From Candidatus Cottocaccamicrobium excrementipullorum (lineage in GTDB: Bacteria; Bacillota; Clostridia; Lachnospirales; Lachnospiraceae): 33,205 nucleotides of DNA. Positions 2,224-26,424 of the stretch are shown piece after piece; positions within the stretch are counted from its first letter, which is position 1, and every line of letters starts with the position of its first letter. Made by a program: the position numbers and the translations under genes. The notes below the pieces were generated by a model that saw only the letters and a list, made by a program, of their open reading frames with translations, was not told the DNA's origin and searched no databases. Where the stretch lies: the NCBI GenBank assembly GCA_018713255.1, contig DVFL01000030.1, positions 1 to 33,205 on the forward strand, read 5' to 3'.

Positions 2224-3519
2224 TTAAGACAGTCTTCTGCGAATCTCCTCCAGACTTAATCCGGTTCTCCGGCTGATTTCAGCCAGATCCTCATACTCAT
2301 ATTTTTCCCGATGAATCATTCTTCCCGAGGCCATCATTCCTTCTGAAACTTTCTTTCTTACTTTTCCCCAGGACGTATCCTGAATTTCTTCTTTTCGGGA
2401 AAGAACCGATCTAGTACAGGAAACTGCCCTGATTCCTAAGGTTGTGGTATGAGCAAACAAAATCTCTTCCATTCTCTCCTTATCTTCCGTTCGGCAAAGG
2501 CAGGTCAGCAAAATCCCTGGGCGGCTTTTTTTCATGCCGATAGCCGTGGTATAAGCGTCCAGAGCTCCTTCCTGCATCAAAAGCTCCAGCACAAATCCAA
2601 TATCCTCTCCCCGCATATCGTCTACATTGCAGCGCAGCTCCTGGATATGGCCCTCCTGATTAGCCTTCTCCTCTTCTTCCCCCAAAAATGCCCGGATACA
2701 ATTCGCCATGCCAAAATCCTTTTTCCCCATTCCATAGCCGATTCCCCGAGTAATCATCAACGGCATAGGACCGAATTCAGAGACAAAATGCTTAAGAATA
2801 GCAGCTCCCGTAGGGGTGCAGAACTCCCCGTCTATATTTCCTGCGTAATAAGGAATCCCCTGGAGAAGCAGGGCAGTGGCCGGCGCAGGCACCGGCAGGA
2901 TTCCATGGGCGCAGTGCACATGACCTCTTCCAGCGTGAACCGGCGATGCCAGAATTCGGTCCGCATGAAGCTGCTCCAGCAGATAACAAAATCCCGTCAC
3001 ATCCGCCACTGCATCCAGCGTCCCCACTTCATGAAAATGAATGTCCTCCACGCTCCGTCCGTGAACCTGACTCTCCGCCTGAGCAATGAGCTGATAAACC
3101 GCCATGGCCTGTTCCTTCACCCAGGAAGAGGCATTCAGGCCCTGGATAACCTCCGAAATCTCCTTCATTCCTGCATGATAGTGGTGATGATGGCCGTGGT
3201 GGTGATCATGGCCGTGATCATCATCGTGATGGTGATGGCAGCCGCCCTCCTGATCATCAGCGTCACCATGATCATGCCCGTGACCATCCTGATGCACATC
3301 CATACTCTCCTCTTCCTGCCCGCAAACCAGGACCTGCATATGCGTCCCTGTAATTCCGCATTTTTCCGCCTTCTGGGCTCTAAATTCAATTCCTGGAATC
3401 CCCAGATGATTAAGCCCTTCAAGAGCCTTATCCCGGTCAGAACAAAGCTCAAACAATGCCGCCGTCAGCATATCTCCGGCGGCTCCCATGCCGCAGTCTA
3501 AATATATGGTATTTTTCAT
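2224..3519 (-). CDS. larC: LarC, nickel insertase for the nickel-pincer cofactor
   Basis: A 431-aa LarC (former DUF111) that, in the characterised pathway, uses CTP to insert Ni into pyridinium-3,5-bisthiocarboxylic acid mononucleotide. The N-terminus LDCGMGAAGDML is the family hallmark. Residues about 76-115 form a His/Asp-rich, presumably nickel-binding stretch (HHHHDDDHGHDHHHGHHHHYH in part). DIHFHEVGTLDAVADVTG follows. The N- and C-terminal parts are in one frame, unlike Lactobacillus plantarum, where larC1 and larC2 are joined by ribosomal frameshifting. It is the last gene of larE-larB-larC, 40 nt after larB, and ends at a strong terminator. Confidence 0.93.
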   Translation of the reverse strand: MKNTIYLDCGMGAAGDMLTAALFELCSDRDKALEGLNHLGIPGIEFRAQKAEKCGITGTHMQVLVCGQEEESMDVHQDGHGHDHGDADDQEGGCHHHHDDDHGHDHHHGHHHHYHAGMKEISEVIQGLNASSWVKEQAMAVYQLIAQAESQVHGRSVEDIHFHEVGTLDAVADVTGFCYLLEQLHADRILASPVHAGRGHVHCAHGILPVPAPATALLLQGIPYYAGNIDGEFCTPTGAAILKHFVSEFGPMPLMITRGIGYGMGKKDFGMANCIRAFLGEEEEKANQEGHIQELRCNVDDMRGEDIGFVLELLMQEGALDAYTTAIGMKKSRPGILLTCLCRTEDKERMEEILFAHTTTLGIRAVSCTRSVLSRKEEIQDTSWGKVRKKVSEGMMASGRMIHREKYEYEDLAEISRRTGLSLEEIRRRLS

Positions 3520-3559
3520 TTTCCCGTCTCCTTAATGCTGCCCCTTTCTCCCCGGCAGT

Positions 3560-4309
3560 TTATTTTCCATGATTGATCATACTGGCCAGATATCCTGCCC
3601 CGAATCCATTGTCAATGTTGACCACGCTGACTCCGCTGGCACAGGAATTTAACATGGACAAAAGGGCGGACAAGCCAGAAAATGACGCTCCGTATCCTAC
3701 ACTGGTAGGCACTCCGATCACAGGACAGTCTGCAAGCCCGCCAATTACGCTGGCCAAAGCTCCTTCCATGCCGGCAATCGCAATAATTACCTGTGCACTC
3801 ATAATATCATCCATGTGGGCCAGCAGCCGGTGGAGACCTGCTACTCCCACATCATAAAGCCGGACTACCTGATTGCCCAGGGCTTCCGCAGTCAATGCCG
3901 CTTCTTCCGCCACCGGCATATCACTGGTTCCCCCTGTAGCCACCACCACAGTCCCTCTTCCATCAGGCTCAGGCATCTGCCCCATAATGCCAATCCGTCC
4001 CATTTCATCATACCGAAGAGCATGAACCTTCTGAATTTCCTCTGCCTTTTCTGGAGAAAGGCGAGTCACCAGCACCGTCTTTTGGCCGTGGCGCTCCATC
4101 GCTGACAAAATTCCGATAATCTGCTTTGCCGTCTTTCCCGCGCCGTAAATCACTTCAGCGGCTCCTTGACGCAGAGCCCGATGATGATCCAGCTTGGCGT
4201 AGCCAAGATCCTCAAATGGCTGTTCCTTAAGCTTCAGTACAGCTTCCTCCACGGGCATTTCTCCACGGGATACCCGAGTCAACATTTCCCGAATCTCCTG
4301 TTGTTCCAT
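3560..4309 (-). CDS. larB: LarB, P2CMN synthase (carboxylase/hydrolase)
   Basis: A 249-aa protein of the LarB family. Its C-terminal half is related to PurE/NCAIR mutase. LarB carboxylates nicotinic acid adenine dinucleotide and releases AMP, giving pyridinium-3,5-biscarboxylic acid mononucleotide. Visible family features are AEVIYGAGKT near residue 53, VATGGTSDMPVAEEA near 124, and IAGMEGALASVIGGL with CPVIGVPTSVGYGAS near 178-210. The gene starts 3 nt after the larE stop with an SD (GGAG) inside the larE end, so the two are translated as a unit. Confidence 0.93.
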   Translation of the reverse strand: MEQQEIREMLTRVSRGEMPVEEAVLKLKEQPFEDLGYAKLDHHRALRQGAAEVIYGAGKTAKQIIGILSAMERHGQKTVLVTRLSPEKAEEIQKVHALRYDEMGRIGIMGQMPEPDGRGTVVVATGGTSDMPVAEEAALTAEALGNQVVRLYDVGVAGLHRLLAHMDDIMSAQVIIAIAGMEGALASVIGGLADCPVIGVPTSVGYGASFSGLSALLSMLNSCASGVSVVNIDNGFGAGYLASMINHGK

Positions 4310-4312
4310 TTT

Positions 4313-5077
4313 CTATCGCTCCTTTAAATCCAATAATACCGCCAGAAAATTGCCCTCCAGGGCTTCTCTGATTTCTTTTCGCCGCGCAACCGCCATCTCC
4401 ATCTCATCCGGAGGCAGCTGGATTCTGGCTGCTCCCTGAAACAGACGGATGCGAAAATCCGAGAATCCCATCTGGGCCAGAGCCTTTTCTCCCTCTTCGA
4501 TTTTCCTAAGTTTTTCCGCTGTAATTCTCTCTCCTGCAGGAATTCTGGTAGCCAGACATGCATAAGCCGGCTTATTCCAGGTAAACAGCCCTGCTTCCCT
4601 GGAAGCTTCCCGGATCTCAGCTTTCGTCAGACCGCACTCCCGAAGAGGGGAGCGGACAAAAAGTTCTTTGATCGCCCGCATTCCCGGCCTGTCCCCGGCA
4701 TCATCAGAAGCATTCGTGCCGTCTAGAAGCAGCGAATACCCTTCCCTGCCCGCCGCTTCACGAAGGGCGCCAAACAACGCCTTCTTGCAGTAATAACAGC
4801 GGTCTGGCGGATTCGATGCTGCCTGTTCTACCTTTAGAACATCGAACTCCACCACCTGCAGGCTGACTCCCAGTTCCTTTGCCAGCCGCTTCCCATCTTC
4901 AAGCTCAAATTCCGGCTGAAAGGGAGTTTTCACAAAAAACGGCTGTATCTTTGCTCCCGCCCTGCACCCGGCATATAAAAGATAAGCAGAATCTACACCG
5001 CCGGAAAATCCCAGCGCTGCTTTAGGATTTTCCTGAAAAAAACCATTCAGCAATTCTATTTTTTCTTCTCTGCCCAT
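4313..5077 (-). CDS. larE: LarE, sulfur transferase for the nickel-pincer cofactor
   Basis: A PP-loop ATP pyrophosphatase of the LarE family that adenylates P2CMN carboxylates and replaces oxygen with sulfur. The motif SGGVDS is near residue 26. Three Cys stand out: RCYYC near 94 and 97, and AYACLATRIP near 174. The last corresponds to the sacrificial Cys of L. plantarum LarE, while three such Cys are found in LarE forms reported to carry a [4Fe-4S] cluster. I chose ATG 5077 (254 aa) because GGAGG (5086-5082) precedes it; the upstream ATG at 5098 has no SD and would add seven residues. Confidence 0.92.
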   Translation of the reverse strand: MGREEKIELLNGFFQENPKAALGFSGGVDSAYLLYAGCRAGAKIQPFFVKTPFQPEFELEDGKRLAKELGVSLQVVEFDVLKVEQAASNPPDRCYYCKKALFGALREAAGREGYSLLLDGTNASDDAGDRPGMRAIKELFVRSPLRECGLTKAEIREASREAGLFTWNKPAYACLATRIPAGERITAEKLRKIEEGEKALAQMGFSDFRIRLFQGAARIQLPPDEMEMAVARRKEIREALEGNFLAVLLDLKER

Positions 5078-5102
5078 TTTTCCTCCATCTTCTTTCATTA
5101 AA

Positions 5103-5560: not shown

Positions 5561-5785
5561 TATGATACCAGAGCCAAAAGGTCGAAAATCCGACACAAGC
5601 TTCTTGCAAGAGGATTTTCGATCTTGGAAGCCGCCAAAAACATAAATAAGCAGCTATTTTTCGCGGAAAAAAGAGCGGATTATAAATGTTTTTGAGGCTT
5701 GTGAGAGTGCGAAGCACGAAAACAAGCCGGTACCATAGGGGGCAAAAGACCTTTTGACCCCAACTTCATTTTTGAGCGGCATCAA
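5561..5785. repeat. structured intergenic repeat element
   Basis: No gene is seen in this stretch, but it is dense in inverted repeats. GGTCGAAAATCC (5580-5591) pairs with GGATTTTCGATC (5612-5623). CAAAAACAT (5635-5643) pairs with ATGTTTTTG (5696-5704), with AAGCC/GGCTT extending the stem. GTGCGAAGCAC forms a mini-hairpin near 5717. GGGGGCAAAAG pairs with CTTTTGACCCC near 5738-5761. The ends carry related words (ATGATACC, GGTACCAT). The look is that of a dispersed non-coding repeat or structured RNA; copies elsewhere cannot be checked here. Confidence 0.55.
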
Positions 5786-16064: not shown

Positions 16065-16757
16065 TCATCCCACTCCGAAATCTGTAATTTCATACAATAC
16101 TTCTACTTCAGGATCATCCAGAAGCCATTTGTACTCTTCCATGAACCATTTAACCAGTTCTTCATCTCTCTTGATGGGAGTAGTATTGTTATTGTAAACA
16201 TTCACGGTTCCATGGCGGAAATATTTTTTCAGCATGGAAATATCGTTTCGGATCATCTCCTTAGTCTGACCCTGGATTCCCACCATCAGACAAATGGAAT
16301 CAAAATACTCCGCAGCCTCCTGAGGCGTTTTAAACTCTGCATGCTTGTTCAAAACCTTCTCGCGAAAATCATAATCAAAGGTTTCCACTCCCATCTTGTA
16401 GGTTACAGGAATGCCAAAAAACTGCCTCATTTCCTCCAGCCGATGTCGATAAATCCAATGGCTTTCAAAAATCAGCCGCTGAATGGAAAGCCGCCTCACC
16501 GTCTGCCGGATATCCTCCAGAGTTTCCTTGGGAAGCTCAAAGCAGCTTCCGGAATTAATCACTTCCAGCACTCCGAATTCCCCTGTAACCTGGGAAATCA
16601 CCTGCCGGTTCTCCTTAACCATTTCTTCCTCATCTCTTCCATTGTCCTCAATGTAATCACAGAACGCACATTTTCCCCAGGCACAAGGAAAGGCTCTGAG
16701 AAGAAGAATTTCTCGTTGATTTTTATCTGTAATCCGGCTATATCGTTCCATGGCCAT
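16065..16757 (-). CDS. queL: radical SAM queuine lyase (QueL-like)
   Basis: A 230-aa small radical SAM protein. The cluster motif is C25-AWGK-C30-AF-C33 (CX4CX2C), as in the published subgroup that turns queuine into preQ1. Other conserved-looking parts are INSGSCFELP near 67 and MGVETFDYDFREKVLNK near 121. It would feed preQ1 to tRNA-guanine transglycosylase. The identity rests on motif, size and context: an ECF S component and a nucleosidase behind a preQ1 riboswitch. It overlaps the S-component gene by 20 nt. The SD GGGAGGAG precedes ATG 16757. Confidence 0.85.
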   Translation of the reverse strand: MAMERYSRITDKNQREILLLRAFPCAWGKCAFCDYIEDNGRDEEEMVKENRQVISQVTGEFGVLEVINSGSCFELPKETLEDIRQTVRRLSIQRLIFESHWIYRHRLEEMRQFFGIPVTYKMGVETFDYDFREKVLNKHAEFKTPQEAAEYFDSICLMVGIQGQTKEMIRNDISMLKKYFRHGTVNVYNNNTTPIKRDEELVKWFMEEYKWLLDDPEVEVLYEITDFGVG

Positions 16758-17325
16758 TTACTCCTCCCTTAAGTTTCTGACGCAGCTGGCTTCCCATCAG
16801 ATTTACCACCGCAGCTGCTGCAGCTGCTGAAATACACCGGTCCAGATAATCCGTTAAAATCTGCACCGCGAAAATGCTTCCCGTAAGTCCCAATGGTGTC
16901 CTGGCTAAAAGCTGCACCAGAACCGTGGAACCAGAAGAAGTCACGCCGCCAAAAAGAGCTGCATTAATCAAAGAACTGACTGCCGTTCCTGGAATAGTAA
17001 TAACGGCTGCCGCCCATATCAGTTTCCATCTTCCCATGGATCTTCGGTAAAAAACCAGTCCGCTCATGAAACCAGTGATCATGCCCACAGGAGCAAAATA
17101 CAGAGAATAAATATCCACGGTCATTCCCATAAAGACGCCGCTGAGAAGATTAGGAATCATTCCATACCAGGGTCCCAGCACCGCCCCGATTAAAATCGTT
17201 CCGATGCTGTCCAGATAAATTGGAAGCCGGAGAAGCAATGCAATCTGCCCTCCCGCAATATTCACCGCAACTGCCATGGCTACCAGGCAGAGCTGGTAGA
17301 CGTTCATTTTCCCTCTCTCTTTCAT
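16738..17325 (-). CDS. qrtT: ECF transporter S component, queuosine-precursor type (QrtT-like)
   Basis: A 195-aa membrane protein with about six hydrophobic spans. The N-terminal part (VNIAGGQIALLLRLPIYLDS near 20-40) looks like an S component that binds substrate and docks to a shared EcfAAT module, which is not encoded here. In Clostridioides difficile a QrtT S component imports queuine/queuosine precursors; position between the nucleosidase and radical SAM genes supports that substrate. ATG 17325 has AGGAGG upstream and lies 36 nt after the nucleosidase stop. Substrate assignment is by context. Confidence 0.85.
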   Translation of the reverse strand: MKERGKMNVYQLCLVAMAVAVNIAGGQIALLLRLPIYLDSIGTILIGAVLGPWYGMIPNLLSGVFMGMTVDIYSLYFAPVGMITGFMSGLVFYRRSMGRWKLIWAAAVITIPGTAVSSLINAALFGGVTSSGSTVLVQLLARTPLGLTGSIFAVQILTDYLDRCISAAAAAAVVNLMGSQLRQKLKGGVNGHGTI

Positions 17326-17361
17326 CTTTTCCTCCTGATTTTTCCTTTCCTGCTCCCGTAC

Positions 17362-18354
17362 TTACCCCTGCACCAAAGTCTCCAGCAAAGAAAGCTCTTC
17401 CTTATTCCACTGTCCTCCGTCCTTTTTCTTCAGCACTCGAGATAAAAAGAAATACATAAATTCTTTCGGATCTGTCTCTATGAGAACATGGCTGTTGGGT
17501 GCTTTCTTCCAAAAATTCATGGAATCCACCACCGTCTGCCCTCTGCAGATCCCCTCAGTTTCCACCGCCGTATAGCTGTCAAAACCGCAGCAGAAGGAAT
17601 GGTCCACCAGATACGCCGCCGCCAGCGGATCATTGATCACGCAGCCGATGATTCCTTCATATTCCCAGTGAAAATCCAGATAAAATCCCGTGATTTTTCG
17701 AATAAACGCCCCGGTCTCTGGATCAAGCCGCTCCATGTAAGACAGCAGATTCGGCGTGAGAACGATCCTGCGAGTCACATCCAGACCAATCATATGGATC
17801 TTCCTTCCGGCCTGGGCAAACTGCTCATAACAAAAAGCCGCAGCCTCAGGGTCGCACCAGTAATTGTACTCTGCTACCGGAGAACAGTTCCCATGGCTTT
17901 TAAAGCTTCCCCCCATGGAAACCAGCTCTTCCACCTGATCAATCAAATCAGGACGCCGTTTAAACAGCCGTGCCAGATTCGTCATGGGTCCCAAGGCAAG
18001 AATGGACATCTTTTCCCTTTCCAAGGATTCCTCCAGAAAATCTACGGCATGTTTTTCCGGGAATTCTCCTGGGACGGCAGGAAGAAAACTCTCCCCTAAA
18101 CCGTCCCGCCCATGAGTGTCCATGGCATCCACGTAAGGTTTGCTCAGGGGAACCTTTTCCCCAATATAAATCGGAATATCCATCCGATTCATCTGCTTTA
18201 ACACCTTTCTGGCATTTTCCCCGCCCATCTGAGCGGGCACATTTCCCGAAACGGTGGTAATTCCTGCGATTTCAAGCTCCGGAGAAGAAATCGCCAGCAT
18301 CAACGCAAGAGAGTCATCAATTCCCGGATCGCAGTCTATCAATATTTTTCCCAT
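17362..18354 (-). CDS. queK: queuosine nucleosidase (QueK-like, IunH superfamily)
   Basis: A 330-aa nucleoside hydrolase. The Ca-binding Asp cluster is at the N-terminus (DCDPGIDDSLALML, D7-D14), with ALGPMTNLARL near 121, and a late NDPLAAAYLVD supplies another Asp ligand. IunH proteins cleave ribonucleosides to base and ribose. In the queuosine salvage pathway QueK releases queuine from queuosine. It is the first gene of the operon. AGGAGGT (18361-18367) precedes ATG 18354, behind a preQ1-I riboswitch. Ordinary inosine/uridine hydrolase activity cannot be excluded from motifs alone. Confidence 0.86.
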   Translation of the reverse strand: MGKILIDCDPGIDDSLALMLAISSPELEIAGITTVSGNVPAQMGGENARKVLKQMNRMDIPIYIGEKVPLSKPYVDAMDTHGRDGLGESFLPAVPGEFPEKHAVDFLEESLEREKMSILALGPMTNLARLFKRRPDLIDQVEELVSMGGSFKSHGNCSPVAEYNYWCDPEAAAFCYEQFAQAGRKIHMIGLDVTRRIVLTPNLLSYMERLDPETGAFIRKITGFYLDFHWEYEGIIGCVINDPLAAAYLVDHSFCCGFDSYTAVETEGICRGQTVVDSMNFWKKAPNSHVLIETDPKEFMYFFLSRVLKKKDGGQWNKEELSLLETLVQG

Positions 18355-18403
18355 AAAAAAACCTCCTGTTTACTCAGCCCTTGTTCAGCAAAAAATCCTC
18401 GCC

Positions 18404-18432
18404 AAAAAGGGCATCGTCCTGCAGGAGATGCC
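18404..18432 (-). terminator. riboswitch terminator upstream of queK
   Basis: GGCATC (18432-18427) pairs with GATGCC (18415-18410), with an inner TCC-TGCA-GGA stem, followed by CTTTTT. Confidence 0.8.
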
Positions 18433-18439
18433 GATACAG

Positions 18440-18474
18440 CCTAGTTTTTTATACTGGGAGGATTTCGAACCAGT
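18440..18474 (-). ncRNA. preQ1-I riboswitch aptamer
   Basis: Minus-strand RNA: P1 5' strand CTGG (18473-18470), a C/U-rich loop, P1 3' strand CCAG (18457-18454), then the A-rich tail TATAAAAAACTAGG (18453-18440) that makes the H-type pseudoknot. This closely resembles known preQ1-I aptamers such as the B. subtilis queC leader (tail ATAAAAAACTAA). It is followed by an intrinsic terminator, so high preQ1 should switch the salvage operon off. Confidence 0.88.
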
Positions 18475-18490
18475 CTATGAAACTTTATGT

Positions 18491-18519
18491 AGTATAACAG
18501 AGAAAGAAAACCAATGCAA
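18491..18519 (-). promoter_or_regulatory. promoter of queK-qrtT-queL
   Basis: TTGCAT (18519-18514), 17-nt spacer, TATACT (18496-18491), placing the start just before the preQ1 aptamer. Confidence 0.8.
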
Positions 18520-18584: not shown

Positions 18585-19541
18585 TTATTTTAAAAATCTT
18601 GCCTCCCAGGCATATTCCTGAAGAGTTTCCATCTCCTGGTCCGTAAACTGGAAGGTCCGTTTTACCAGCTCCAGCTCCTTGCAAAGGTTAGTATCGGAAA
18701 CAGTCATATTATCCGAATTTACCGTCACCCGCACTCCTGCATCGAACAGACGGCGAATGGGATGATCCTTGATGGAAGGCACGGCTTTAATCTGAAAATT
18801 ACTGGTAACGCAGATTTCCAGCGTTACTCCTTCCTTCGCCAGCGTTTCCATCAGCTGCGGGTCGGAAGCGGCTGCAATACCGTGGCCAATCCGCTTGGCG
18901 CCGTAAGAAAGAGCGGTGCGGATACTGTCCGGTCCGGCGGCTTCCCCTGCATGAATCGTCACAGGAAGATCGTATTCTCTGGCTCTGGCAAATACGGCTG
19001 CAAAATTTTCCGTAGGGTATAACGACTCTGCCCCTGCCAGATCCAGGGCACAGACCACATCTCCTAAATACTTTCTGGCAGTTTCCACCGTATCCATATT
19101 CAAGTCCTGATTATCTGCTTTCCGCATACAGCACAAAATCAGTCCCACCTGAATCTCCGGATACTGCTGCATCCCCCTCTTTGCCCCCCGGATAGCCGCT
19201 TCCACTGCCTGATCCTGAGTAAGCCCCTTTTGAAGAGACTGCTGAGGCGCAAACCGGATTTCTGCGTAGACAACTCCCTCTTTGGCAAGATCCTCCACCA
19301 GCTCAAAGGTTACCCGCTCCAAAGCGCTTTCCTCCTGAAGAACCAGAAGAGGAAGATCGAACCGTGCCAGACATTCCTGCAGATTCGGACAATCCTCAGG
19401 TACCTTCATCTTAAAAGCAAGCTCCTGAAGATCCTTGGCCGGAAGGTCAATTTTTTGTTCTTTTGCCAGCTCCCAAACCGTCTCCGGGCGCAGAGAGCCG
19501 TCCAGATGTAAATGCAATTCTGCTAATTTCTGCAACTTCAT
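18585..19541 (-). CDS. add: adenosine deaminase
   Basis: A 318-aa zinc TIM-barrel deaminase that converts adenosine and deoxyadenosine to inosine forms. Catalytic features are visible: ELHLHLDGSL (H10, H12), TIHAGEA (H197, E200), RIGHG (H220) and VNSDN (D277). Length is slightly short for the family. It is the last gene of the uptake operon, 27 nt after the second permease, with GGAGG close to the ATG. This fits an operon that imports purine nucleosides and starts their breakdown. Confidence 0.94.
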   Translation of the reverse strand: MKLQKLAELHLHLDGSLRPETVWELAKEQKIDLPAKDLQELAFKMKVPEDCPNLQECLARFDLPLLVLQEESALERVTFELVEDLAKEGVVYAEIRFAPQQSLQKGLTQDQAVEAAIRGAKRGMQQYPEIQVGLILCCMRKADNQDLNMDTVETARKYLGDVVCALDLAGAESLYPTENFAAVFARAREYDLPVTIHAGEAAGPDSIRTALSYGAKRIGHGIAAASDPQLMETLAKEGVTLEICVTSNFQIKAVPSIKDHPIRRLFDAGVRVTVNSDNMTVSDTNLCKELELVKRTFQFTDQEMETLQEYAWEARFLK

Positions 19542-19568
19542 TTTCCTCCATGAGCTTCCATAAACGCT

Positions 19569-20525
19569 TTAGCCTTTTTTCTTTCCTGCTGCCTGAAGCT
19601 GTTTTTTCTTTCTTCTCTGCTCCACCATAAAGCAGTAAATGGTATAAGCAATTACAATAATCAGATAAGGCATCAGCTGGATAAACTGCAGGGGAATGGG
19701 AGAAGACTGAAGATAGTTAGCCATACTCTGGCAGAAACCAAAGAGCAGAGAAGCTAACATTCCTACTACTGCATTTCCCGCTGCAATAGCCTGAGTCGCC
19801 AGAGCAATGTAGCCTCGTCCAGCTGTCATTCCAGAAGAGAACAGTCCCACATAACCCATGGATAGGAAGGCACCTGCCATTCCGGTTAAGACGCCGCTGA
19901 TGCTTAAAGCAATGTATTTTACCCGCTTCACCGGAATTCCTACAGATTCCGCTGCATCAGGAGACTCTCCCACGGCACGGATATGCATGCCCAGACGAGT
20001 ATATTTAAACATATACCAGATTACCGCCACAAGAATCAGCCCTGCGTAAGTCAAAATATGATGGCCGGACAGAACCGCTCCAATCACCGGAATATCCTTA
20101 ACGAAAGGAATAGTTACACTGGGCAGAGTAAGGGAAGGCAGGGATGTGGAAGCGCCCTTCTCTCCCGTCACCAGATAAAGGACAAATATGGTTCCTCCTG
20201 AAGCAAAGGTATTCAGGGCAATTCCAGAAATAACGGAATTGGAATTCAGCTTTAAAACAAAGTAGGCCAGAATATTGCTGACTACAAAGCCGGCAAAAAC
20301 CGCTCCTAAAAATCCGATCAAAGCGCTCTGGGTGAAGGCGCTGACCACCACTCCCACGAAAGCGGAAATCAACATAGTTCCCTCAAGAGCAATGTTATTC
20401 GTTCCCGCCCGGGATGCTACCATGGCTCCCAACGTGGTAAGAAGCACCGGCGTCGCGCTCCGGAACATGGCAAAATAAAATTCCGGCAGACTTAAGGTTC
20501 TTAAAATGTCCTGCAGTACTCCCAT
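19569..20525 (-). CDS. nupQ: nucleoside ABC transporter permease (NupQ/YufQ-like)
   Basis: A 318-aa membrane subunit with about 8-10 spans and the family loop TRLGMHIRAVGESPDAAESVGIPV near residues 180-203, which contacts the ATPase. ASRAGTNNIALEGTMLISAF near 40 is typical of BMP-type permeases. It pairs with the preceding permease. ATG 20525 has GGGGAGG ahead, only 3 nt after the neighbour's stop. Basic Lys-rich C-terminus. Confidence 0.92.
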   Translation of the reverse strand: MGVLQDILRTLSLPEFYFAMFRSATPVLLTTLGAMVASRAGTNNIALEGTMLISAFVGVVVSAFTQSALIGFLGAVFAGFVVSNILAYFVLKLNSNSVISGIALNTFASGGTIFVLYLVTGEKGASTSLPSLTLPSVTIPFVKDIPVIGAVLSGHHILTYAGLILVAVIWYMFKYTRLGMHIRAVGESPDAAESVGIPVKRVKYIALSISGVLTGMAGAFLSMGYVGLFSSGMTAGRGYIALATQAIAAGNAVVGMLASLLFGFCQSMANYLQSSPIPLQFIQLMPYLIIVIAYTIYCFMVEQRRKKKQLQAAGKKKG

Positions 20526-20528
20526 TCT

Positions 20529-21575
20529 CTACACCTCCCCGCCAAGAGCTTTTTTCGCTTCCTGGCGCTGCTTCCAGCCGGCCATAAAGCGCTCTGCCGT
20601 AACAAACAAAATCAATACCGCCTGAATAATGGACACCAGCTCATTCTGCACATCAGAACGGCGGGACATTAAATCTGCGCCGACTCGGATGTAAGCTAAG
20701 AAGAAGGCGGCAAAAGGCACCATCTTGGGATTGTTCCCTGACAAAATAGCAATAATTACGCCGTCCCAAGCATAGGAAGGGGAATCCTGCCAGTTAAATC
20801 TCTGGTACATGCCCATCTGTTCCACAGCGCCTCCCAATCCGGCTACTGCGCCGGCCACTACCTGAGTCAGAATAATCACCCGGCTGGTGTTAATGCCGGA
20901 ATATTTGGCAAACTGAGGATTGCTTCCAGATACCCGGATTTCATAGCCGAATTTCGTTTTAAACACCAGAAGATACAGTAAAATCACCACTGCAATGGCA
21001 ATCAAGTAGCCTGCATGGAAATTGGTTCCGCTGAGAATGCCAGGCAAAACCGCTGTGGACGCATACTTTCTTGAAGCAAACGCTCCGGCCTCCCGGTCTG
21101 CCAGGAATTTCGTAATGGTATAAATTCCAAGGTAATAAAATACGTAATTCAGCATCAAAGAAGTTACCAGCTCATTGGTGTGGAAATACACCTTAAGCAG
21201 AGCCGGAATGCTTCCAATCAATCCGCCTACAGCAGCTGCCGCAATCATAATCACCACCGGATGAACCCCGGCAGGAAGGGCGATTTCAATGGCAATAGCA
21301 GCGGTAACCACGCCGCCAATATAAAGACAGGCGTCGGAAATCATGGAAAAGTTTCCTGATTTAAACACCAGTCCCAGCGCAAGACCTGTAAAAATCAGAG
21401 GAACGCTGCTGGAAAACACCTCGAAGAAATGGCGTTTAGACTGGAGAGGACCAATAAACAAATTGAAAATTGCCGTTCCCGGCTCTTCACTTACCGCCAG
21501 AATAATGGCTATAGACAGCGCCATGGCAATAGCAAATGCGCACAGCAGACGGATGGCCGTAAACTTTTTACTCAC
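20529..21575 (-). CDS. nupP: nucleoside ABC transporter permease (NupP/YufP-like)
   Basis: The larger permease of the pair, about 348 aa, with hydrophobic spans through most of its length and the coupling stretch GYEIRVSGSNPQFAKYSGINTS near 208-229. I place the start at GTG 21575 because AGGAGG lies 8 bases upstream. A GTG at 21584 would overlap that SD and is unlikely. It overlaps the ATPase gene by 8 nt, indicating coupled translation. Confidence 0.9.
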   Translation of the reverse strand: MSKKFTAIRLLCAFAIAMALSIAIILAVSEEPGTAIFNLFIGPLQSKRHFFEVFSSSVPLIFTGLALGLVFKSGNFSMISDACLYIGGVVTAAIAIEIALPAGVHPVVIMIAAAAVGGLIGSIPALLKVYFHTNELVTSLMLNYVFYYLGIYTITKFLADREAGAFASRKYASTAVLPGILSGTNFHAGYLIAIAVVILLYLLVFKTKFGYEIRVSGSNPQFAKYSGINTSRVIILTQVVAGAVAGLGGAVEQMGMYQRFNWQDSPSYAWDGVIIAILSGNNPKMVPFAAFFLAYIRVGADLMSRRSDVQNELVSIIQAVLILFVTAERFMAGWKQRQEAKKALGGEV

Positions 21576-23124
21576 GGTACGCACCTCCTATTCTCTCTTT
21601 GGAATCTTCTTTTACGCCCAGCATATAAAGACCCAGTTCATTTTCTGATGTACTCTTCACATCATCAATATAGCCCACAATCCGGCCTTCATGCATGACT
21701 AAAATAGCATCACTAAGAGAAAGAATCTCGCTTAAATCTGCAGATACCAGAAGAATTGCCTTCTGCTGGCTGCGCATTTCCACGATTTTCTTCCGAATAA
21801 ACTCAATGGCGCCAACATCGATTCCTCGGGTGGGCTGATTCATAATCAGCAGATCCGGCTCATAATCAAATTCCCGGCCCACAATTAATTTCTGCACATT
21901 TCCTCCCGACAGCTCGGACACCGTCTGTTTTGAGTTATCGTATTTCACCAGGAATTCCTTCAGAATCCGATTGGTAAACTCACTGACTTTCTTCCCATCA
22001 ATCAGGCCATGAGATTTCAGCCGATCAGTATAGTACACTTTGGAAATCGTGTTGTCTTCCAGAGAAAGTTTAGGCGCGGATCCATACCTCATCCGGTCTT
22101 CCGATACGTGGGAGATCCCTGCTTCCTGACGGGTCCGCACCGAAGCCCGGGTAATATCCTGTCCCTTTAAGGTGATGGTTCCATGCTGCGGTCTTAAAGT
22201 CCCCACAATGGCTTCTACCAGCTCTGACTGACCGTTTCCATCGATTCCGGCAATGCCAAGAATCTGTCCCTGGTGAATGGAGAAGGATACATGGTCCAGT
22301 CTGGTTTTCCCGAAAGAATCTGCGTAAATCAAATCTTTCACGGAAAAGATATTCTTGCCGTATTTTGCCTCTTCCTTCTCAATGTCCAGGCTCACATCTC
22401 TGCCTACCATCAGCCGGGAAATTTCCTGTTCATCCAGATCGGAAATTTCATAGGTTCCCATGGTCTTTCCATCCCGGAGAATAGTCATCCGGTTGCATAA
22501 TGCTTTTACTTCGTTCAGCTTATGAGAAATAAAAATAATAGTATGGCCATTTTCCCGCAGAAGCTTCAGCTGCTCAAATAACTCCTCTGTCTCCTGGGGA
22601 GTCAGCACCGCCGTCGGCTCATCCAGAATCAGAATGTGAGCTCCCCGGTAAAGGGCCTTTAAAATTTCCAGTTTCTGACGCATGGCCAGGGAAATATCCT
22701 CAACTTTCTCCTGGGCCTCCACCTTCAGATTATACTTATCTGATAATTCCTTTGTAATCCGGACTGCTTCTTTGCGGTCTACCTTTAAGGCGTTTCCCGT
22801 TTCTGCTCCCAGAATCAGATTTTCCGCCACCGTCATGGACGGCACCTGCATGAAATGCTGGTGAACCATTCCCAGACCAGCTGCAATGGCGTCACTTGAG
22901 GAAGAAAAATGCACTTCCTTTCCTTCCACGAAAATCTGTCCTTCTGTGGGTGCAAGCATTCCGAAAAGCATCTTCATCAGCGTAGATTTTCCTGCGCCGT
23001 TTTCTCCTACCAGCGCATGGATTTCTCCTCTTCTGATCTCGAGATTGACATTGTGGTTCGCCACAACGCCGCCGGGATATACTTTAGTAATATTCCGGGC
23101 TTCCAGGACATTTCCCTGCTCCAT
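21568..23124 (-). CDS. nupO: nucleoside ABC transporter ATPase, double domain (NupO/YufO-like)
   Basis: A 518-aa protein with two fused ABC domains. The first has Walker A GENGAGKST (41-49) and Walker B LILDEPTAVLT near 167; its signature is degenerate (ISLAMRQKLEI). The second has a degenerate Walker A (GIDGNGQSELVEA) but a good signature LSGGNVQKLIVGRE. This asymmetry, giving one competent composite site, is normal for the family. SD GGAGG sits 8 bases before ATG 23124. A hairpin separates it from the binding-protein gene. Confidence 0.93.
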   Translation of the reverse strand: MEQGNVLEARNITKVYPGGVVANHNVNLEIRRGEIHALVGENGAGKSTLMKMLFGMLAPTEGQIFVEGKEVHFSSSSDAIAAGLGMVHQHFMQVPSMTVAENLILGAETGNALKVDRKEAVRITKELSDKYNLKVEAQEKVEDISLAMRQKLEILKALYRGAHILILDEPTAVLTPQETEELFEQLKLLRENGHTIIFISHKLNEVKALCNRMTILRDGKTMGTYEISDLDEQEISRLMVGRDVSLDIEKEEAKYGKNIFSVKDLIYADSFGKTRLDHVSFSIHQGQILGIAGIDGNGQSELVEAIVGTLRPQHGTITLKGQDITRASVRTRQEAGISHVSEDRMRYGSAPKLSLEDNTISKVYYTDRLKSHGLIDGKKVSEFTNRILKEFLVKYDNSKQTVSELSGGNVQKLIVGREFDYEPDLLIMNQPTRGIDVGAIEFIRKKIVEMRSQQKAILLVSADLSEILSLSDAILVMHEGRIVGYIDDVKSTSENELGLYMLGVKEDSKERIGGAYRE

Positions 23125-23147
23125 AAGTTATCCTCCATCGTTAAGAG

Positions 23148-23178
23148 AAAATCTCCTGCCATGACAGCAGGAGATTTT
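23148..23178 (-). terminator. partial terminator between bmp lipoprotein and ATPase genes
   Basis: AAAATCTCCTGC pairs perfectly with GCAGGAGATTTT (12 bp, 7-nt loop), ending in TTTT on the minus strand. A second hairpin (GCCGCC/GGCGGC) lies at about 23248-23276. They probably lower expression of the membrane parts relative to the binding protein. Confidence 0.7.
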
Positions 23179-23299
23179 GCCGGTTTCTTTTTCGTTACGG
23201 TGAAAGTCTGCCGCCGAATCAACAACATAAATTCAGAGATTCCAAATGCGCCGCCAACCGTTCATCGGCGGCTGCGCACTGGCTGTCGGCACATGATCA

Positions 23300-24484
23300 T
23301 TACTGTGCACTGTCAATGATTTCGTTTAAGGTTGCTTCATCCATACCGTAAGCGGTATTTACCTCAATCTCACCGGAGATAATCTTATCTTTTGCATCAT
23401 TCACAGCCTGCTGAATCTCTTCCGGAACGATAGACTGATAGATTTCATTGTCGGCAAGTCCAACTACTCCGTCTTCCAGACCCAGAACCTGATATTCACC
23501 ATAAGGAAGTTCTCCTGCCAGATCTTTCTTCACTGCATCTACAAGGCTGTCGCCAACATTTTTAATCGCGGAAGAAACGATATAATTTGCTTCCTCCTGT
23601 CCCTCATAAGCAAGCGCCTGATCAGAGTCAACACCAATTACATACCTCTGGCTCTCTGCCGCAGCTTCGATTACACCTACAGAGGCAGGTCCAGCTGCTA
23701 CGAATACACAATCTGCGCCGGAAGAATACTGGGTTAACGCCAGCTCTTTTGCCGTTGCAGAGTCAACATAGGAACCTACATAAGAAACCATTACTTTGAT
23801 GTCCGGATTTACAAACTGAGCGCCCTGGATATACCCTACTGCAGAGTCATTAATTACCACAGCAGTATCTCTTGCGCCTACAAAACCAATCACCGCATCA
23901 TCGTTGGCATATTCCACATCAGAAGTGGTCAGGCTGGCAGCCAGAACACCTGCGAGGAAAGCACACTCATTCTGCTTATAGCTCATGGAATATACATTGC
24001 TTAAATCGCCCAGGCTGTAATCCACATCGGTATCAAAGATAATATAACGCTTCTCCGGGAATTCCTGAGCAACCTGCTCGGTAATTTCCTTCATATCCCA
24101 CAGACCAGTAATAATAATGTCTGCATCAGACTCGGAGGCATCCAGCATGGAGCCTTCAAATTTGGTCTTGTCGTTGCCCATCTCGATCATCTGAACTTCT
24201 ACCTGATCGCCCATTTCATTCATCAGGCGCTCCATTCCAGCCTGAGCAGAATCGTTAAATGCCTTATCGCCGAAAGAACCGGTAACCAGAAGAGCGATCT
24301 TTACCTTCTCGCCAGTGGATTCCTCTCCCTGAGTTTCCTCAGCAGCATCTCCTCCTGCTGCTTCCTCGCCGGCAGTCTCTCCTGCAGCAGTAGTGGTTCC
24401 GCTGCTGCTGCTTCCTGAACAGCCAAACAGCATAGAAGCTGCCATTGCCATTACTACAGCACCAGTTAACACTTTTTTCTTCAT
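23300..24484 (-). CDS. BMP-family nucleoside-binding lipoprotein
   Basis: A 394-aa substrate-binding protein. Signal peptide with lipobox LFGC (C22), then a Ser/Gly/Thr/Glu-rich linker to about residue 60, then the BMP/PnrA domain. VKIALLVTGSFGDKAFNDSA near 61-80 and IGFVGARDTAVVINDSAVGY near 200 are typical; an Asp early in the domain binds the ribose. It feeds the NupOPQ importer. The ATG overlaps the amidohydrolase stop by 4 nt. Confidence 0.93.
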   Translation of the reverse strand: MKKKVLTGAVVMAMAASMLFGCSGSSSSGTTTAAGETAGEEAAGGDAAEETQGEESTGEKVKIALLVTGSFGDKAFNDSAQAGMERLMNEMGDQVEVQMIEMGNDKTKFEGSMLDASESDADIIITGLWDMKEITEQVAQEFPEKRYIIFDTDVDYSLGDLSNVYSMSYKQNECAFLAGVLAASLTTSDVEYANDDAVIGFVGARDTAVVINDSAVGYIQGAQFVNPDIKVMVSYVGSYVDSATAKELALTQYSSGADCVFVAAGPASVGVIEAAAESQRYVIGVDSDQALAYEGQEEANYIVSSAIKNVGDSLVDAVKKDLAGELPYGEYQVLGLEDGVVGLADNEIYQSIVPEEIQQAVNDAKDKIISGEIEVNTAYGMDEATLNEIIDSAQ

Positions 24485-26109: not shown

Positions 26110-26424
26110 CAAAATTAAGAACCATGAATGCGAAGAACAGGACAAGACTTCCCAGGCAGATCTGTTTTCAGAGAGTTCCCAGTTGGTGGAAGGGAACAGC
26201 AGAGCCAGGACGGCCATCCCCTGCGAGCAGTCGGAGCGAAATCAGACAGTAGTTCCGGCCGGAATCCTCCGTTATCAGGAAACCTGTTAATCCGGCAAAT
26301 CAACATGCAGACCGGACGACGGGACTGAGGGACCGGATAATCCGGTAAAAGAAGTGGTAACGCGGAGAAAGCTTTTTCGTCTTCTGACAGAGACAATCTG
26401 TCAGAAGGCGATTTTTTATTTTTC
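26110..26424 (+). ncRNA. T-box leader with intrinsic terminator
   Basis: The ~310-nt leader has the landmarks of a tRNA-sensing T-box. The Stem I base is GCGAAGAACAGG, closed by CCTGCGAGC (26129-26229). The distal part is AGAGAG-TTCCC...GTTGGTGGAA-GGGAA (26170-26197). The antiterminator has AGAAG (26350-26354), bulge TGGTAACGCG and CTTCT (26381-26385). The competing terminator is CTTCTGACAG/CTGTCAGAAG (26381-26407) with a T-run. TGGT would pair with an uncharged ACCA tail, so the tRNA should have discriminator A. The specifier codon could not be fixed; GCC in GGCCATCC is one candidate. Confidence 0.82.

Follow-up and report, generated by a model that had tools for sequence, protein, structure and literature searches.

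We asked whether three adjacent minus-strand genes in the window (the whole stretch of DNA analyzed, 33,205 nucleotides from Candidatus Cottocaccamicrobium excrementipullorum) form a complete operon for queuosine salvage. The original prediction was that a nucleosidase, an ECF transporter S component and a radical SAM protein of about 230 aa make up a queK-qrtT-queL cassette with a preQ1 riboswitch in its leader. All three open reading frames were found at the predicted place on the minus strand, and the riboswitch was confirmed by an Rfam match above the gathering threshold, just outside the range originally given. Assignment to the queuosine salvage pathway was supported by the similarity of QueL to the solved protein 6p78, by the riboswitch, and by the salvage-only gene content of the genome. 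We conclude with high confidence that the cassette represents the Clostridioides difficile type of queuosine/queuine salvage operon, under regulation by preQ1; no evidence contradicting this reading was found in the analysis.

Layout of the cassette

The minus strand of the window carries, in the order of transcription, the following elements:

18435-18479, minus strand: preQ1-I riboswitch aptamer (RF00522, 45.0 bits against a gathering threshold of 39, full model 1-45)
17362-18354, minus strand: queK, candidate hydrolase of queuosine, 330 aa (position in the cassette; match to IU_nuc_hydro, PF01156, above cut-off with E = 1.3e-88)
16738-17325, minus strand: qrtT, candidate S component of an ECF transporter, 195 aa (weak model matches below cut-off; position in the operon)
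16065-16757, minus strand: queL, queuine lyase candidate, 230 aa, radical SAM protein with CX4CX2C (homology to 6p78)

The E value of the RF00522 match was 3.5e-6 over the whole window. Comparison with 6p78 places the probable start of queL at an internal ATG at 16751 (MERYS...); the 3' end of qrtT overlaps the queL open reading frame by 20 bases, or by 14 if queL starts at 16751.

Genes for an adenosine deaminase, a BMP-type lipoprotein and an ABC transporter (the last two named by eye) lie directly upstream on the minus strand (18585-24484), and are probably a purine nucleoside uptake operon. Because a hairpin at about 18585-18540, recognized by eye and in part found computationally, lies between the adenosine deaminase gene and the aptamer, the cassette is probably a transcription unit of its own. 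Farther away in the window, larE (TIGR00268, over cut-off) stands beside likely larB and larC genes, named by eye, in a probable nickel-pincer cofactor operon (2224-5098, minus strand). The plus strand has a Clostridiales-1 RNA (5563-5735) and a T-box leader (26124-26387) ahead of a gene for a CstA-like carbon starvation protein, also named by eye.

QueL and its solved relative

The original prediction counted itself refuted if the closest characterized relatives act on other substrates, which is not the case for QueL. The sole solved relative detected by phmmer at E up to 0.01 was PDB entry 6p78, 'Queuine lyase', which we take to come from C. spiroforme. It matched QueL over residues 1-229 (E = 5.7e-82) with 127 of 229 residues identical (55.5%). 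Both proteins have the CX4CX2C motif and a C-terminal TDFGVG, and no notable difference was seen between them at the sequence level. The cluster motif of the window protein reads CAWGKCAFC, and CX4CX2C was kept without exception in a comparison of 86 QueL sequences, which came from the window, 6p78, four distant relatives and 80 loci. The Pfam Radical_SAM model matched QueL below its cut-off (24.9 of 29.5 bits).

QueK and QrtT

The best solved relatives of QueK, from 31 sequences found with an E limit of 0.001, were generic RihA-type nucleosidases. Fifty-two QueK rows were available; two were dropped for short matches (loci L016 and L027, where the queK match was partial), and DxDPGxDD was present in 49 of the 50 used, the window counted among them. 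In the QueK tree, the window belonged to a well-supported group whose 15 rows come from Blautia and neighboring genera. As to a clade of cassette QueK apart from RihC and the genome's own paralogs, the tree gave the outgroups no firm place: their end branches were 2.8-10 changes per column long, and E. coli RihC joined the cassette rows at an open fork.

No curated ECF S-component model, among those that matched, scored above its cut-off for QrtT: PF12822 gave E = 3.8e-6 (27.5 of 30.7 bits), and NF045596, 'CD3073 family', gave E = 6.6e-24 (84.5 of 180 bits). The name QrtT is that of a candidate, based on position in the operon and on the published operon. Three CbiQ-type T components are encoded in the genome and could serve an ECF module.

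Gene content of the genome

The genome assembly (3.37 Mb in 42 contigs, 96.1% complete) was searched for the remaining genes of the pathway, since a salvage role predicted tgt, queA and queG or queH without the de novo genes queD, queE, queC and queF. The genes tgt (TIGR00430) and queA (TIGR00113) were present and passed the NCBIfam equivalog cut-offs. Also present was queH (PF02677, E = 4.4e-71), in a stretch with no NCBIfam hit. QueF (PF14489), PTPS/QueD (PF01242) and the transporter family QPTR (PF02592) gave no match in the genome at E up to 0.001.

Two matches to QueC (PF06508), of 23 bits (profile 1-43) and 20.6 bits (2-64 of 210), looked like de novo synthesis, and both were counted by the tool as over the 22-bit cut-off. 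They were rejected: the genes are those for MnmA (TIGR00420, 365.8 bits) and LarE (TIGR00268, 241 bits). The sole QueE model used, the Clostridium-type TIGR03963, gave four hits of 20.3-37.4 bits, where the cut-off is 260.1. Hits of this size carry no meaning, because all 14 control genomes also gave hits, none of them over the cut-off. Two of the four places, the best two, were inspected and were named by eye as MoaA-like and pyruvate-formate-lyase-activase-like open reading frames.

Because the assembly is 96.1% complete and in 42 contigs, these absences are not absolute. The content of the genome fits the variant 'QueA, QueG/QueH, qTGT', which the accessible part of one survey assigns to 601 of 2,228 gut genomes (PMC6593275). 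Judged from its genes, the bacterium appears unable to make queuosine, a building block of tRNA, on its own.

Conservation of the cassette among relatives

Relatives of QueL were collected in one scan of genome contigs, from which the best 80 of 115 were kept; the nearest among these were from Blautia and other Lachnospiraceae. With tblastn at E 1e-5, queK-qrtT-queL occurred in order in 51 of the 80. This repetition means that a chance arrangement is of no concern. At one of these loci (L033), about 1.6 kb separates queK from qrtT. Nine relatives gave matches for qrtT and queL but none for queK, and 20 had queL alone within the stretch examined, by a search that does not catch QueT-type transporters. 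With 29 of 80 relatives lacking queK and 20 of 80 lacking a qrtT match in the stretch examined, queL also occurs outside the full cassette.

Three of the 51 loci with the full cassette were cut near the leader, and each of the other 48 had the preQ1 aptamer pattern or an Rfam hit. The pattern was found 45-640 nt ahead of queK in 43 (one of these, L006, was also scanned with Rfam and was positive); the other five had RF00522 matches of 39.2-50 bits, of which two exceeded 39 only narrowly. Six of the nine qrtT-queL loci had the aptamer pattern, and the other three had neither pattern nor Rfam hit. Among the 20 loci with queL alone, two were cut and the other 18 had no aptamer pattern; seven of these 18 were scanned with Rfam and gave no preQ1 hit.

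We also examined 120 genomes drawn from the family, that of the window included. Eleven had queL, at 66-100% identity in seven and 43-46% in four; a second member of the window's genus that was in the draw was without queL. QueF matched at E < 1e-30 in 34 of the 120, and queL and QueF occurred together in one (G013), where about three were expected by chance. These are too few genomes to conclude that the two genes are anti-correlated. A further 40 genomes had weak QueF matches only (E 1.6e-7 to 7.2e-4, profile 1-61), which are probably kin of GTP cyclohydrolase. Such matches occurred in three of the seven genomes with a close queL (G088, G108 and G113; two over the Pfam cut-off) and in three of the four with a distant one.

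Several relatives have other arrangements. Three of the four fetched loci with distant QueLs (43-46% identity) were inspected, and in all three (L096, L097 and L099) queL directly adjoins a gene for QPTR (PF02592). At L096 (3730-5118, from G013, which also has QueF) a single reading frame carries first a metallo-beta-lactamase-fold domain (PF13483, E = 2.1e-7) and then the distant QueL (43-44% identity), next to the QPTR/COG1738 transporter. QPTR is divergently placed at L083, where QueL is 57% identical, and QueT (PF06177) comes right after queL at L057. From these neighbors and QrtT, QueL pairs with three transporter families.

Alternative activities for the nucleosidase and the radical SAM protein

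If the nucleosidase were a general purine/pyrimidine nucleoside hydrolase that merely sits in the operon, only qrtT and queL would be specific for queuosine. Such an enzyme would suit the RihA/IunH-type character of the solved relatives of the 330-aa protein, the adenosine deaminase, lipoprotein and transporter genes directly upstream, and the nine relatives that have qrtT and queL with no match to queK. We consider it quite unlikely, however, for queK leads the genes that follow the preQ1 aptamer and keeps its place in the ordered cassette of 51 relatives; moreover, the genome has two further IU_nuc_hydro genes elsewhere, and the hairpin at about 18585-18540 separates queK from the adenosine deaminase gene.

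Less probable still is a radical SAM protein whose substrate would be a different 7-deazaguanine, like that of the archaeosine enzyme RaSEA. The RaSEA model TIGR01210 does match QueL weakly (E = 1e-14), but its 54.5 bits are far below the cut-off of 212.15, whereas the queuine lyase 6p78 matches from end to end, and tgt, queA, queH and the preQ1 switch all fit queuine.

TIGR01210 also matched two of the distant QueLs below its cut-off. On sequence grounds, QueL and RaSEA, both radical SAM proteins of 7-deazaguanine chemistry, may share descent; a limited literature search found no publication that treats the two together.

Structure of the leader

Three further elements were recognized in the leader:

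18491-18519, minus strand: probable sigma-A-type promoter, TTGCAT - 17 nt - TATACT, recognized by eye immediately upstream of the aptamer
18404-18432, minus strand: terminator-like hairpin downstream of the aptamer, with CTTTTT behind it (-12.8 kcal/mol for the window sequence)
18361-18429, minus strand: possible anti-Shine-Dalgarno helix, with its 5' arm (about 18429-18422) inside the terminator-like hairpin and its 3' arm over AGGAGG

The consensus scan did not list the promoter, whose -35 element matches at three of six positions. AGGAGG, at 18367-18362, is the Shine-Dalgarno sequence of queK.

The window leader was aligned with 13 close leaders in which the aptamer is 84-89 nt from queK. 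A hairpin with a T run was predicted in all 14 (-4.3 to -12.8 kcal/mol). Its stem was paired in 94.6% of 112 cells and showed no covariation above shuffles in the 14 leaders. Besides the aptamer hairpin, RNAalifold proposed a helix that joins the queK Shine-Dalgarno sequence to the terminator-like hairpin, as well as additional pairs at the expense of the A-rich tail of the aptamer.

The anti-Shine-Dalgarno helix, scored on the same alignment that had proposed it, was paired in 94.2% of 154 cells, against 48-64% for control helices slid along the leader. Columns 68-70, which hold the three outermost pairs toward the 3' side of the left arm, account for eight of the nine unpaired cells. Both partners had changed in five of the 11 pairs, a count that 17 of 500 shuffles reached, and in three of these five the double change was seen only in L006 and L007, which are near-identical rows and count as one event. 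The covariation score was 0.443 compared with 0.246 for shuffles that ignore kinship, none of which (0 of 500) was as high. This possible helix is conserved, with some compensatory changes, in the 14 close leaders. A possible anti-aptamer helix between the aptamer CCUCC and a downstream GGAGGAU was paired in 90.5% of cells; none of its pairs was changed on both sides in the 14 leaders, and one was broken in six of them.

These features suggest a model that we put forward tentatively, at somewhat less than even confidence, in which the leader would be a two-level switch. The 5' arm and loop of the terminator-like hairpin would pair with the queK Shine-Dalgarno sequence about 60 nt further on, so that one short stretch might block either transcription early or translation late. 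A possible CCUCC/GGAGGAU helix, crossing the anti-Shine-Dalgarno one, might represent the ON state. Because more distant cassettes have longer and different leaders, this plan would hold for this branch at most. The accessible part of a review of preQ1 riboswitches presents the terminator and Shine-Dalgarno platforms as separate mechanisms (PMC11625349). A limited literature search found no published description of a leader of this kind, which is weak evidence of novelty. The analysis provides a testable model for a possible regulation of salvage in this branch.

Proposed pathway

The cassette suggests the following route. QrtT, with an ECF energizing module encoded elsewhere, would import queuosine, queuine and/or preQ1. 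QueK, to judge from its family and its place, would remove the ribose of queuosine to give queuine, and QueL, a close homolog of the solved queuine lyase, would convert queuine to preQ1. Tgt would then insert preQ1 into tRNA, and QueA and QueH, whose genes are present, would complete queuosine. High preQ1 would be expected from the known riboswitch class to turn the operon off through the preQ1-I aptamer; termination, occlusion of the ribosome-binding site of queK, or both would be the most likely means.

This route suggests that a Lachnospiraceae-type gut bacterium would depend on queuosine, queuine or preQ1 from outside, which fits published maps of gut queuosine users as given in the accessible parts of two reports (PMC11130926; PMC6593275). 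Competition with the host and the microbiota for queuine, also part of the original prediction, is plausible.

Comparison with known systems

The primary paper on the C. difficile queK-qrtT-queL operon is reportedly that of Yuan et al. 2019 in PNAS. C. difficile has the same three genes ('CD1682, 84') with a preQ1-I riboswitch and the same roles, according to the accessible text of PMC11477304, and its queK and queL enable queuosine salvage by E. coli (PMC11570991, also available in part). The portion of a 2024 survey that was accessible states that most species of the large intestine are without queDECF and carry queKL and transporters instead (PMC11130926). The gene content and riboswitch class described in these partial sources for C. 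difficile are as found here, and C. difficile is described as unable to make preQ1, as this bacterium appears to be; the species is different, and the likeness is drawn from the published description.

The locus of Blautia caecimuris DSM 29492 (L006) could be compared with the window directly. Its QueK, QrtT and QueL are 75%, 68% and 85% identical to those of the window, its riboswitch matches RF00522 at 45 bits, and its leader has the same plan, with the anti-Shine-Dalgarno pairing partly changed on both sides. An operon of this type has already been published, and the cassette of the window is a further, complete and ordinary example, whose value is that of an added data point and not of a new principle.
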